Source of the DNA: Isoetes taiwanensis
Lineage: Eukaryota; Streptophyta; Lycopodiopsida; Isoetales; Isoetaceae
Direction: 5' to 3'
Length of the DNA stretch: 64,000 bases
Assembly (NCBI GenBank): GCA_021234155.1
Contig: JAJEKV010000028.1
Span: forward strand, 11,422,134 to 11,486,133
Part shown: positions 35,221 through 64,000 of the stretch, piece by piece
How positions within the stretch are numbered: position 1 is the stretch's first letter
How the letters are laid out: each line of letters starts with the position of its first letter
Notes under the pieces: generated by a model
Database searches by the model: none
What the model saw: only the letters and a program-made list of their open reading frames with translations
Told to the model about the DNA's origin: nothing
Made by a program: the position numbers and the translations under genes

Positions 35221-36790
35221 ATAAAGTGCCCAGAAAGAAGCTATGGGAATGGATGGATGAATTACAAGTACCTAAAGACCTACAAGATGTGGTTCGGATA
35301 CTACATAAGCAGATCTTAGTACAACTATTTACACCTCTATCTCAGGAGATTCCAAAGTATATAAACAGTAATATAGGTGTGAAGCAAGGGTACCCGATGT
35401 CTCCAACTTTATTTGGTCTATTCGTTGATGGTTTAGAGGAATGGCTCAGATGTCATGGGGAGGGAGGAATGGAAATAAATGGGTATGTCATACAGTTGCT
35501 AATGTATGCAGATGATGTGGTAATTTTTGCACAGACACGAGAACACATGCAGTAGCTTCTGAATTCACTGGCTAGCTTTTGTGAGGTGAAGGGCATGGAA
35601 GTAAACCTTGAAAAAATAAAAATTATGACAGTTGGGGCACTCAGACAAGACCACTAGTTCAAATATAAAGATAGGACCATAGACACTTGTGAGGCGTACA
35701 AATATCTGGGATTGATGATAAGCATAAATCATAGATGGAACACATGTATTATATAGAGAGTTGAAGGAGGGTTGAGAGTCTGATATGCGATGCAAAGCAT
35801 GTGTAGGTGAATCTCCCTGTGGCCGTGGCAACTAAAGATTAGGCTCTTCCAATCTTTAGCCAAAGTGTTCTCTTGTATGGATGCGAGATATGGGGCCCAA
35901 GCTTGCCAAAAGGATTGTGAGAGGACGTTGAACAAGTCCTAAAGAAATTTTTGCATCTAGAACTTGGAGTGAAGATTTAAACACCATACCAAATGATGCT
36001 AGCCGAGTGCAGAATAATGCCTCTTGAGGGACAAACAATACTCAGATGCATTTGATATCTGAAGAAGGTTAGAAAAATGGATAACAATAGGATGCCATAT
36101 CATGCCATGCAAGCAAGTAGAAAGGATGGTTTTCTAACACAAAAATATGGCTAAACAAGTTGGACATTAGATGGGAAGATGCAATCTTGTATGACGATGA
36201 TATCCGACAATGGGTTTATGGTAAGGTGAAAAGAAAAATACGGCAGAACCCTATGACTAAGATGTTTCTTTGTATAAACAAAACATGAACACTGAGCTGA
36301 AGGTTCCAACACATTTACATGAAGATATATCAGTTAAGAAGAGACACACAATTAACAGGATGCACTTGAATTCACACTGCCTTAGCATTGAAGTGGGACA
36401 ATGGGTAGGACCATTCCCAAAGAAATGAGAGAATGCAAAGTTTGTGGAAGTGTTGATATAGAAGACAAAGAGCATGTTCTGCTGAAACGTCCCGCAGACA
36501 AACTAATATGAGACCATTTTGAAATTGAAGCAAATGATCTCACAACGTTCTTCTCACTTCCAGATGATAAGATAGGCTCTTTCATGATTGATGTGTTGAT
36601 CTATAGAGAGACCAATCTAAGTAATGTAAACATTTTATTAGATGTAAGTGAATATGAGAACGAGAGTGAGGAGTTGGATGAGAAAACTAAAACTCGTCAA
36701 CTATTCTATGAAGATATGCAAATTGTTATCTATAGGCCTGAGAGGCCTCCACAGACACATCTCATCTCATCTCATCTCATCTCATCTCAT
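35221..36790 (+). pseudogene. LINE family A copy 1: RT to C-terminus, 5' truncated
   Basis: A non-LTR retrotransposon polymerase fragment. It reads KVPRKKLWEWMDELQVPKDL-type sequence, then NSNIGVKQGYPMSPTLFGLF, VIQLLMYADDVVIF (the YADD active site near 35,506) and EAYKYLGLMISINHRWNTC, and degenerates through 36,700 with many stops. The family's usual end LLFYDDV-stop is altered: the stop codon is changed (GATGTCTAA in copy 3 against GATATGCAA here), so the frame runs into the microsatellite. The 3' end has the stem-loop TAGGCCTGAGAGGCCTCC then CATCT repeats. Its 5' junction is not in a (TC)n tract, unlike the others. Confidence 0.85.
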
Positions 36791-36908
36791 CTCTCTCTCT
36801 CTCTCTCTCTCTCTCTCTCTCTCTCTCTCTCTCTCTCTCTCTCTCTCTCTCTCTCTCTCTCTCTCTCTCTCTCTCTCTCTCTCTCTCTCTCTCTCTCTCT
36901 CTCTCTCT
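36791..36908 (+). repeat. (TC)n microsatellite, 118 bp
   Basis: A pure dinucleotide tract directly after the CATCT tail of LINE A copy 1. Ser-Leu and Arg-Glu frames across it are artefacts. Confidence 0.99.
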
Positions 36909-38315
36909 ACGTATTTTCTAAGAGATGCTTGAGAGATAATTATCTCTTGATTGTTAACCCCCTCAGTTAGCATTTTTTGTTGGCGGACGTAGGCGGGCAG
37001 GCGCGGGCAGGTGCGGGCAGGTTAAAATAGAAAAAAAAAAACCTTTGGCAAATGTATCTGGGACGACCTTCAAGATCCGGCCTTTGGGCAATGGGCTTCC
37101 TTTGGCCCCTGGCAACTGGATTCAAGCAAGGCTTGCATGATCAAACCCATGTTAGATTGATTTGACGAAGTCTGAGTAAGATTCGTGGAAAAAGGGGTTT
37201 TTTTTTCCTGTAAGCTTATGTATTTCAGATTTTAAATCCCCCATTTGTAGATCATTTCTCTACAATTTCGAGCTTGAATCCCCTGTTTCGAGCTTGCATT
37301 TGAGCCCATCTAGAGCCGTTTGAGCTCAATAGTGTGATTGAAATGAAAAGATGGTTGCTTATCAGAAGATCCGGGAGTCTTTGGCATGGCAATCAGAAAT
37401 AAAATATTGTGTTTCCTCCAATTGTGAAGACCGGAACTAGAAGCTTGAGAATCTAGATCTAGAGCTCATGTTATTTTGTCGTTGTTTTATTCCAGTATAG
37501 GGAGAACCAGACGAAATAGAGTATGAATCAAAGTCCAAAATATGAAAAGGGCGTGATCCGACAAGCTTGCAGGAAAAAGTTCTTGGCTTATAGAAGCCAA
37601 ATCTGCAATAGAAGCCAAATTCGAAAGCCATAGATTTAGCTATATCCGGAAGCGTGGCCAACTGCTGAGCCATATATCATACGCCCACCTGTTAGAGATC
37701 CTGCTCGCCCTCTTCTTCAAGATTTATTTTTTTGTAGAACTTTCAAATCAGAACCAGATCTGTGAATACAATGCCATGCCATGCCATACCCTGCCCTGCT
37801 GTGCCCAAATAAAAAAATATAATCCAAGCTTTCTAGGTATTTTCTACTTTCTAACATCTAGCGCATCATCTACTCAAGCTCTTCAATCTCTGTAACACCC
37901 AAATATTTTTCCCCCGCCTTCAAATTGCCGGATTCTCTGTACCAGATTGCACAATACCAGATTGCCGGATTCTCTGTGCCAGATTGCTCAATACCCTAAA
38001 AGAAAATCTGCACGAATTTTTCATATCCATAGCTGTGGGGCCGCCGTAGTCGCCCAGTGCCCTGCCCTGCCCTGATGTGCTCGCAAATCCATCAGAACTC
38101 TACCCACCGGATGTTTGCCCTGCCCGCATGTAGGAAGAAGGGGAAAAATGGTAACAGGGAAGTATAATGGGAAACCCCCTAAATGTTAGTTAAGGTAAAA
38201 AACCCCTCTCGTGGGCTAAAAGGTGAGAGTGGGTTTTTCCCACTCTCACCTCTCTCTCGCCCCTCTCGCCCTCTCTCATCATCTCTCCCACTAAAAAAGC
38301 GATCATGTGGGAAAG
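36909..38315. other. 1.4-kb unassigned segment between two (TC)n tracts
   Basis: No coding similarity seen. The left end (TACGTATTTT, then a 16-bp palindrome AGAGATAATTATCTCT) resembles sequence at 52,826-52,885. The interior has Gly/Ala-type GC-rich patches (36,985-37,020) and repeated 'ccctgccctg' strings. The right end carries a perfect 13-bp hairpin at 38,221-38,251. Confidence 0.45.
38221..38251. other. Perfect 13-bp inverted repeat with T5 loop
   Basis: AGGTGAGAGTGGG and CCCACTCTCACCT around TTTTT. It lies 65 bp before a (TC)n tract. It could form a stable hairpin; no terminator or RNA gene context is evident. Confidence 0.8.
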
Positions 38316-38431
38316 CTCTCTCTCTCTCTCTCTCTCTCTCTCTCTCTCTCTCTCTCTCTCTCTCTCTCTCTCTCTCTCTCTCTCTCTCTCTCTCTCTCTC
38401 TCTCTCTCTCTCTCTCTCTCTCTCTCTCTCT
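38316..38431 (+). repeat. (TC)n microsatellite, 116 bp
   Basis: A pure tract. LINE family B copy 1 begins at its right edge. Confidence 0.99.
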
Positions 38432-62670: not shown

Positions 62671-62764
62671 CTCTCTCTCTCTCTCTCTCTCTCTCTCTCT
62701 CTCTCTCTCTCTCTCTCTCTCTCTCTCTCTCTCTCTCTCTCTCTCTCTCTCTCTCTCTCTCTCT
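62671..62764 (+). repeat. (TC)n microsatellite, 94 bp
   Basis: Pure tract between LINE A copies 2 and 3. Confidence 0.99.
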
Positions 62765-63909
62765 AAGCAAGATTTTCCATTCAAATATAAGGGCAGCATT
62801 ATAAAAACATGTGAAACGTATAAGTACTTGGGACTAACAATAAGCAGGAATCACAAGTGGAATACATGTATTGCACAAAGAACTGAAGGCGGGCTAAAGG
62901 CCCTATATGCTATGCAAAGTATGTGCAGAAAAATATTCTTATGGTCATGGCAGCTCAAGATGAGACTCTTTCAGTCATTAGTCCAGAGTGTTGTTCTATA
63001 TGGATGTGAAATTTGGGGACCGAGCTTGCCACAATGCTTATGGGAAGACGTTGAACAAGTGCTGAAAAAATTTTTGCGCTTGGAATTGGGTGTGAAGGTT
63101 CAGACCCCATACCCGATGATGCTAGCTGAATGTGGGCTCATGCCACTTGAAGGTGAAGCGATCCTTAGATGTATCAGATATCTAAAGAAAGTGAGACATA
63201 TGGATAATGTTAGACTCCCACACTCTGCCATGTTAGCCAGCGAAGAAAAGGGATGGTTTGCAGATGTAAAGAGATGGCTCAGCAAGTGGGACATCAAATG
63301 GGAAGATGCAGTCTTAGTTGATGATAAGAAGCTCAGGCAGTGGGTTCATGTGAAAGTAAAGACAAAATTATGGCAGAATCCCAAGACTAAGATGGTATTA
63401 TATAGACAAAATATGAATCCTAATCTAGAGACAGCTGCTTACTTGCAGGAGAATATTTCTATCAAGAAAAGACATAACATCTGCAGAATGCGTCTTAGTT
63501 CACACCGTCTTGGAGTCGAAGTGGGGAGATGGGGACAGCATATCCCGCGAACAATGCGAGATTGTAAAATTTGCGGTGGAGGAGAGGTAGAAGATGAAGA
63601 ACATTTCCCCTTAAAATGCCCAGCATACACTTTGATAAGGACCAGATTTGACATAGTAGCAGATGATCTTATTATGTTCTTTTCATTGAAAGCAGATAAA
63701 ATAGGATCTTATATGATAGAAACCTTACAATATAGAGAAACTTATGTTAAAAGTTTGAATATTTTATTGGATGATAACGAGAGTATGAGTGAAAGTGAGG
63801 AGCTAGATGAGGACTCAGAGAGTCATCTATTATTCTATGATGATGTCTAAAATTTGTCGTCTGTTAGGCCTGAGAGGCCTCCCAAGACATAATACATTTC
63901 ATTTCATTT
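62765..63909 (+). CDS. LINE family A copy 3: open ORF2 C-terminal half, 5' truncated
   Basis: The frame is open without a break from the (TC)n edge to TAA 63,848-63,850, about 360 codons. It starts downstream of the RT active site (KQDFPFKYKGSIIKTCETYK; YLGLTISRNHKWNTC), then WQLKMRLFQSLVQSVVLYGC, EIWGPSLPQCLWEDVEQVLK, KKRHNICRMRLSSHRLGVEV, the zinc block CKICGGGEVEDEEHFPLKC, and the acidic end ESEELDEDSESHLLFYDDV. It cannot be enzymatically active without palm and endonuclease, and has no proper start. The intact frame suggests a young insertion. Confidence 0.9.
63861..63890 (+). ncRNA. LINE A 3' stem-loop (copy 3)
   Basis: GTCT gtt AGGCCT gag AGGCCT ccca AGAC, then ATAATACATTTCATTTCATTTC and TC. 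Confidence 0.7.
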
Positions 63910-63923
63910 CTCTCTCTCTCTCT
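63910..63923 (+). repeat. Short (TC)n junction
   Basis: About 14 bp of TC between LINE A copy 3 and copy 4. Confidence 0.95.
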
Positions 63924-64000
63924 AGATGAGGATTCAGAGACTCATCTACTCTTTTATGACGTTGTTTAATTTTTGTTGTCTTTTAGGCTTTTGAGGCCTC
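63924..64000 (+). pseudogene. LINE family A copy 4: last ~15 codons and 3' end, cut by the window
   Basis: Begins inside (TC)n and reads DEDSETHLLFYDVV-stop, then the first arm of the family A stem-loop. It is almost identical to the end of copy 2 (62,568-62,640), so it is an extremely 5'-truncated close relative. The window ends before its tail. Confidence 0.85.

Follow-up and report, generated by a model that had tools for sequence, protein, structure and literature searches.

A TC-microsatellite-associated clade of L1-like LINEs forms stacked arrays in the genome of Isoetes taiwanensis

The closest described counterparts of the elements reported here are Kibi and Koshi, microsatellite-inserting long interspersed nuclear elements (LINEs) that were reportedly assigned to the Tx1 clade by Kojima and Fujiwara in 2004; Kibi is said to be, like the elements below, a LINE with an APE-type endonuclease inserted in (TC)n. 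Self-stacking LINE arrays are represented by Zepp of Chlorella and HeT-A/TART of Drosophila, which occupy telomeric or subtelomeric positions and stack in a similar manner, but with no microsatellite between copies. Here we describe an array of LINE copies, in two groups denoted A and B, joined through (TC)n tracts in Isoetes taiwanensis. The array lies in a stretch of 64,000 nucleotides, referred to throughout as the window (G000:C1032:11422134-11486133 of a 1.66-Gb, 1110-contig assembly). Whereas Kibi and Koshi are animal elements, the A/B LINEs inhabit a land plant, and their tract is apparently also delivered or grown at insertion; their reverse transcriptase (RT) was compared with sequences other than those of Tx1. 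Site preference and stacking are well supported by the observations that follow, and we place at roughly 0.6 the probability that this clade of L1-like LINEs both prefers TC-rich sites and leaves TC tracts that host later copies.

Other systems share individual features with the array. Togen comprises (TG)n-specific LINEs of fish placed near NeSL, a group with a restriction-like endonuclease (PMC4640811); it resembles the A/B LINEs in being microsatellite-specific and differs in the microsatellite, the host and the NeSL kinship. SaTar of guayule and rice and TAFT of maize are Mu-like DNA transposons that form linear arrays joined by microsatellites, with tracts that reportedly expand after insertion; at maize insertions, 6-8 bp (TA) targets have expanded up to (TA)50 on each side (PMC5907723). 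SaTar/TAFT and the A/B array have in common that unrelated plant elements are linked linearly through microsatellites; the former are non-autonomous cut-and-paste elements with terminal inverted repeats, found mostly at (TA)n in guayule, whereas the A/B copies are LINEs with an endonuclease (EN) and RT, joined by (TC)n in a single polarity. L1 elements of flowering plants (PMC3747384) have in common with the A/B LINEs an L1-like ORF1 and ORF2, and a 3' stem-loop occurs in one 'stringent' lineage of them; they end in poly(A), whereas the tails here are repeats of CATTT, CACTT or CATCT, accompanied by a weak match of ORF1 to mammalian LINE-1 ORF1p and by a site bias. Within the accessible portions of the open-access literature we found no plant LINE with a microsatellite preference, the nearest reports being PMC5907723 and PMC8449440. 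Microsatellite-associated LINEs of animals and microsatellite-joined plant arrays of DNA transposons are already known, and what is added here is a plant LINE clade with a polar TC association across families near saturation at third codon positions, many of these families being stacked in one array, that seemingly creates part of its own target. Such a clade would link microsatellite growth with retrotransposon spread and would offer a clean system for distinguishing endonuclease, RNA-primer pairing and promoter requirement as determinants of the site.

Direct reading and tblastn place eight LINE copies in the window, all on the plus strand, from 35.2 kb to its right end. Copy A1 (35214..36792; RT to 3' end, tail (CATCT)n) runs into a (TC)n tract of 119 nt (36790..36908), behind which a non-LINE insert of 1.4 kb (36909..38315) is closed on its other side by a tract of 116 nt (38316..38431). 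There follow B1 (38432..38842), 5'-truncated to 0.4 kb and ending in (CATTT)n; a short (TC)n of 11 nt (38842..38852); B2 (38853..43481), near full length, with ORF1 and ORF2 (EN, RT and a C-terminal part) in broken frames; a tract at 43482..43603 (pure runs 43482-43566 and 43569-43603); B3 (43604..47769), also near full length with broken frames; and a tract of 64 nt (47770..47833). B4 (47834..52458) is full length, with its ORF1 ATG 2 nt past the tract and a 3' hairpin followed by (CATTT)n, and is succeeded by a tract at 52459..52510 (pure run 52459-52506), a tRNA-derived short interspersed nuclear element (SINE; 52511..52725, plus strand, A and B box by eye) and another tract (52726..52762; pure run 52734-52762). 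Farther right, a tract at 60001..60126 (pure runs 60001-60102 and 60114-60126), whose left flank is not an A/B LINE, precedes A2 (60127..62670; 5'-truncated in EN, tail (CACTT)n), and beyond it lie a tract of 94 nt (62671..62764), the 5'-truncated A3 (62765..63908), a short (TC)n of 15 nt (63909..63923) and A4 (63924..64000), which continues past the window end. LINE copies were delimited by tblastn together with direct reading (A1, B1, B4, A2) or ORFs (B2, B3, A3), A4 by alignment, the SINE by direct reading and the 1.4-kb insert by eye; tracts were delimited by a TC-run scan and TRF, those starting at 36790, 38842 and 63909 by the scan alone.

Pure TC borders seven of the eight 5' ends, the 5' end of A1 being the sole window copy end away from a tract edge, which agrees in full with a sequence-only reading of this locus. 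That reading further held that 3' ends run straight into (TC)n; this stands for all seven visible ends, with the reservations that GCAACCCC separates the B3 tail from its tract and that the end of A4 lies outside the window (its match runs to C1032:11486155, beyond the window end at 11486133, and the 3' count is accordingly of visible ends). CCC separates the tract from A2, and the tracts ahead of B2 and A4 are the short ones. Outside 36.7-64 kb we found a single pure TC run of at least 10 nt (12 nt at 20104, with no LINE seen adjoining), and the same scan revealed no GA run of at least 10 nt on the plus strand anywhere in the window; dinucleotide arrays detected by TRF are confined to 36.7-62.8 kb. 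In a 55-kb background, composed of window positions 1-35000 and four 5-kb stretches chosen blind to content, 0.38% of the sequence lies in runs of pyrimidines or of purines that reach 20 nt, and no TC/GA run of that length occurs.

Genome-wide tabulation of 3' flanks, a check that the sequence-only reading had proposed, extends the association well beyond the window. Copies considered are the best-scoring 40 of each search. With a query of 79 bases from the B4 3' end, lacking any TC tract (41 matches, from the best 40 of 977 candidates), 29 of 39 non-window copies enter a pyrimidine run of at least 20 nt, and 21 of the 39 enter pure TC of that length (by script; L039 and L040 by eye); the remaining ten have runs of 6-16 nt in which the last tail letters are counted. 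Four groups with common 3' flanks (L017/L022, L023/L032/L033, L026/L041 and L027/L028/L029) are probably duplicated loci. With L022, L028, L029, L032, L033 and L041 set aside, 24 of 33 independent copies enter such a run, for which the binomial probability against the 0.38% background is about 3e-58, a figure that assumes independence and is an order of magnitude only. Flanks in the L017, L023 and L027 groups are about 87-100% alike, and their 5' boundaries partly differ. Among A2-type copies, 25 of 38 enter a pyrimidine run of at least 20 nt (23 of them pure TC); L074 and L075, which have a common flank and short runs, are both included. Alignments reach at least 30 nt into a TC tract in 19/39 A1-type, 30/39 B3-type and 23/40 B2-type copies, searches whose queries contained the tract, so that ranking may favour tract-bearing copies, and in which differing tail lengths break alignments. 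These counts leave out each search's own window match, the overlapping C952:16077089 (B4-type), three window matches (A2-type), tract-only rows and row C1028:15143681 (B3-type), and tract-only rows and C1089:23882714 (B2-type, where C1034:7418215 is retained as a copy).

Two control families lack the bias. C-type LINE 3' ends, with an (ATTCT)n tail and the common 3' hairpin, run into a tract in none of 16 copies, and the tRNA-derived SINE lies in TC in one of 20 fetched copies (L050). Polarity is constant among the copies examined, as also claimed earlier: no GA run of at least 12 nt lies within 60 nt downstream of the 39 B4-type copies. At the 3' junctions of all 39, the tail is continued by CT-rich letters. 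(TC)20 is counted 215,281 times in the genome with overlaps included, so that long TC tracts are no rarity in absolute number.

For the 5' ends, boundaries of the 39 B4-type copies were set by mutual alignment and upstream classes were assigned by eye. By this classification the 5' end is at a pyrimidine run in 24 copies and away from one in 15, the longest run within 40 nt of the latter being at most 10 nt; among independent copies 22 of 33 begin at a run, which measures at least 20 nt in 19 (exceptions L010, 8 nt; L036, 17 nt; L023, 19 nt; the tract of L024 was read directly from sequence and not by the run script). In 12 of the 33 independent copies (12 of the 22 at a run) the 3' tail of a further A/B LINE lies immediately ahead of this 5' run; the run follows repeat R or a SINE in three (L012, L016, L031), and has a left flank of neither kind in seven (L011, L017, L019, L021, L035, L037, L039). 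Full-length copies begin at a run without exception (12/12; 10/12 at one of at least 20 nt), as against 10/21 independent truncated copies (9/21 at one of at least 20 nt), with Fisher p = 0.002 as classed, 0.022 with L010 treated as off a run and 0.033 with the 20-nt limit. Eight of these 12, like B4 itself, have their ORF1 ATG 0-16 nt past the run, and the other four start within the first codons (by eye); the B4 type accordingly has almost no 5' untranslated region (UTR) of its own; B2, of a different family, has a longer leader. A few letters intervene between tract and LINE in L012, L017 and L038, and 19-20 nt in L047. Target-site duplications are unresolvable inside TC, and copies with short junctions have disturbed 5' ends (by eye). 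Among the 11 off-run independent 5' ends, L009 and L040 alone have a foreign repeat end in common. Upstream of L047 the tract becomes ATGGAGAGAGAGAGAGAGG ahead of the LINE; no other junction was noticed to have a GA run. Downstream of this copy there is a match to an A-type LINE in inverse orientation.

Two loci permit a filled site to be compared with unoccupied relatives. At locus L035, which sits in a dispersed repeat, the LINE is preceded by 136 nt of TC and followed by 21 nt. When its two flanks were joined without the LINE and tracts and searched against the genome, 25 unoccupied paralogues spanned the junction by at least 30 nt on each side and exceeded the query length by at most 14 nt; the count omits matches of less than 30 nt on either side, and two more places (C1052, C1035) lack the junction region entirely. 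These paralogues leave no room for a long tract, which suggests that the tract arrived with or after the LINE. An empty unit of this repeat has no TC seed at the junction. Locus L021 belongs to a tandem repeat, the neighbouring units of which have the sequence ACAATC-TCTCTATGAATG or CTCACTCTCTCTATGAATG, with short TCTC only; in the filled unit, 129 nt of TC precede the LINE and TCTCTATGAATG follows. The long tracts at both loci seem to have come with or after insertion, and it is on these two comparisons of sequence that we infer delivery or growth of the tract.

B2, B3 and B4 are 65-67% identical in their longest DNA alignments; over 942-1190 aligned codons their identity is 0.60-0.65 at first, 0.71-0.75 at second and 0.38-0.41 at third codon positions. 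A3 compared with A1 and A2 gives, in the same order, 0.64-0.65, 0.70-0.74 and 0.37-0.41 (406 and 458 codons), and A4 belongs with A2 in one family (97% over 79 nt). Low identity at third positions beside higher identity at first and second positions indicates a protein under selection while third positions neared saturation, and hence separate old families gathered in one array. In place of the two families recognized from the sequence alone, the window copies fall into six or seven old families, all within one clade. In a quick tree of the RT region (64 proteins, comprising window copies and both named plant and unnamed sequences, none of them a named Tx1 element), A1-A3 and B2-B4 form one group (SH-aLRT 98) that splits into A and B. 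This group sits within a larger one containing proteins from Calypogeia, Riccia, Taxus and Adiantum, named relatives that fit the plant setting suggested earlier, and many unnamed proteins. The fern Ceratopteris has 23,635 L1-Tx1 elements in a published table (PMC6890710).

Both A and B copies encode EN and RT, and B copies additionally ORF1. A profile of the B2, B3 and B4 ORF1 matches LINE-1 ORF1p (2ykp) weakly (E 3e-4), and the predicted model consists of a long helix followed by a mixed strand-helix part (mean pLDDT 71.7), features that point weakly to an ORF1 of the LINE-1 ORF1p type, as in the L1 superfamily. Searched against Pfam to E 0.1, B3 ORF1 has no match to DUF4283, the plant-type ORF1 of flowering-plant L1. 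The B3 EN matches PF14529 under the curated cut-off (E 2.7e-4), the relative P0005 matches PF03372 at 6e-11, and the EN translation contains GDFN and SDH, which we take to be endonuclease motifs; a search of B3 EN against solved structures produced no match at E up to 1. An APE-type endonuclease is weakly suggested by these matches. For RT, phmmer against solved structures ranks R2 RTs (8e-16) above human L1 ORF2p (8e-11). An open frame at 62639-63850 spans both the tract and A3, and 356 aa of it, used as the A3 protein query, found no match among viral contigs.

We propose that A/B LINEs prefer TC-rich sites, into which they insert with sense strand and TC in the same orientation, presumably through target-primed reverse transcription, and that insertion also leaves TC tracts behind. 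The orientation would provide a primer strand ending in GA repeats, with which tails ending UUC or CUC could pair, partly through G-U pairs, and such pairing may aid priming. The pyrimidine-rich (ATTCT)n tail of C-type ends shows no bias, which argues that tail pairing cannot suffice, and tail pyrimidine content as sole cause was ruled out on the same 0/16. A stem-loop precedes the tail in ten compared ends (three A, four B, two C and the SINE): 96.6% of 88 cells pair, a share that drops to 25-54% once one side is shifted by 1-3 columns, and the alignment stands out from shuffles in covariation score (0/500) and paired cells (1/500), with no excess in pairs changed on both sides (2; 197/500) or in further pair types (494/500). 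We regard this as modest support for a conserved 3' stem-loop, the ten sequences being related and the structure drawn from those same sequences. A tract of the L035 type may be a copy of a (UC)n leader in the RNA or a product of slippage; further copies, and occasionally a SINE, would then be drawn to each new tract, by which the array would build. A borrowed promoter or leader was considered because (GA/CT)n in the 5' UTR raised the promoter activity of one plant gene (PMC5020687). It is a tentative extension, more doubtful than the proposal it extends, that the LINE carries its own landing pad, being transcribed from the TC tract as a GA/CT-type plant promoter and having a (UC)n leader copied into new sites, where it would seed a target for later copies to fill; were this so, TC microsatellite growth and LINE spread would drive each other.

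The earlier suggestion that each insertion in (TC)n hosts the next copy is sustained in its site bias and in the stacking of 12 of 33 copies, and falters over the long tract it presupposes at L035 and L021 and over the 11 of 33 5' ends that lie off a run. In its strict form, an endonuclease that cuts long pre-existing (TC)n, with both flanks as the split target and nothing brought in, it would explain why truncated copies behind non-LINE sequence have TC at their 5' ends (B1 and A2 in the window, L011, L016), why a run at the 5' end tends to be paired with a long one at the 3' end (19/22 vs 5/11, Fisher p = 0.033), and why LINE-free pyrimidine tracts adjoin repeat R in four of 12 copies; it is nonetheless rather unlikely given the 25 tract-free L035 paralogues, the short TCTC at L021 and the difference between full-length and truncated copies at the 5' end. 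Somewhat better placed, though still rather unlikely on its own, is growth from short pyrimidine seeds by microsatellite expansion on both sides with nothing copied from RNA, a special case whose odds overlap with those of our preferred explanation: the ACAATC-TCTCTATGAATG units at L021 beside a filled site with 129 nt are what it would predict, and the TAFT and SaTar DNA transposons offer a precedent (PMC5907723), but the L035 empty unit has no seed and full-length copies again differ from truncated ones. The L035 empty site would equally suit the notion that tracts are merely LINE tails or leaders, with no site preference and with arrays arising by chance or local duplication, as would the duplicated loci in four flank-sharing groups and the CT-rich start of 39/39 B4-type 3' junctions. 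We hold this improbable, since, with a background of 0.38%, 10 of 21 independent truncated copies that have lost their own leader are nonetheless at a pyrimidine run (nine at one of at least 20 nt), which is hard to explain unless pre-existing tracts are preferred, and since stacking of near-saturated families argues against duplication of one copy. Least credible of all is an assembly or repeat-collapse artefact: long microsatellites are generally error-prone in assembly, but dozens of contigs show this arrangement, in differing flanking sequence.

Several observations weigh against preference combined with tract delivery. The empty-site comparisons number just two, both at full-length copies; that at L021 relies on neighbouring tandem units, among the 25 L035 paralogues are units that overlap one another or are duplicated, and the L035 copy might have acquired a tract ahead of insertion. 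Nine of 33 independent B4-type 3' ends have less than 20 nt, 13 of 38 A2-type 3' ends are short, 11 of 33 independent 5' ends are away from any pyrimidine run, and L009, L018, L020, L026, L045 and L046 lack a long tract at either end. The top-40 copies of each search are a nonrandom sample, and the 5' classes depend on judgement by eye.

Other repeats occur within and around the array. The window SINE has a (TCTA)n tail and a 3' end that resembles the LINE hairpin by eye; it occurs in at least 39 other genomic places, and of the 20 read among these 39 non-window matches (L048-L067), 19 are outside TC, on which ground the SINE was rejected as a TC-targeted partner. Repeat R (52763-52900; loci L126-L137, 12 flanks fetched of 39) starts TTGCGTCGGCC, has right-end relatives at 38290-38315, L016 and L031, and stands directly behind a pyrimidine tract or A/B LINE tail in ten of 12 cases (six a LINE tail, four a LINE-free tract). 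By eye, the 1.4-kb insert at 36909-38315 resembles repeat R at about 52.8 kb in its left part, and its right end resembles the sequence upstream of L016 and L031, the right end of repeat R. At L126 the start of repeat R is opposed, across TCTCTC, by an inverted copy of itself, which suggests inverted ends like those of the microsatellite-targeted SaTar Mu-like elements (MULEs). C-type LINE ends lie on the minus strand at 53370-53445 and 58670-58760, with the same kind of hairpin and other tails; the 58.7-kb end is the one with 16 other genomic copies, none in TC. At 17739-19236 lies another LINE, with an endonuclease fragment and an ORF1 that shows distant similarity to the B2 ORF1 (26% over 139 aa). 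In a satellite at 55495-58087 a GGCATGTTGGAGCC-like unit of 57 bp (3 x 19) is repeated about 46 times, and an A-rich tandem region at 58838-59388 consists of AAAACCACAC-type units. By eye, open frames at 1.2-11.5 kb on the minus strand resemble a Helitron-type helicase, and those at 24-27.5 kb on the plus strand a Gypsy-type polyprotein.

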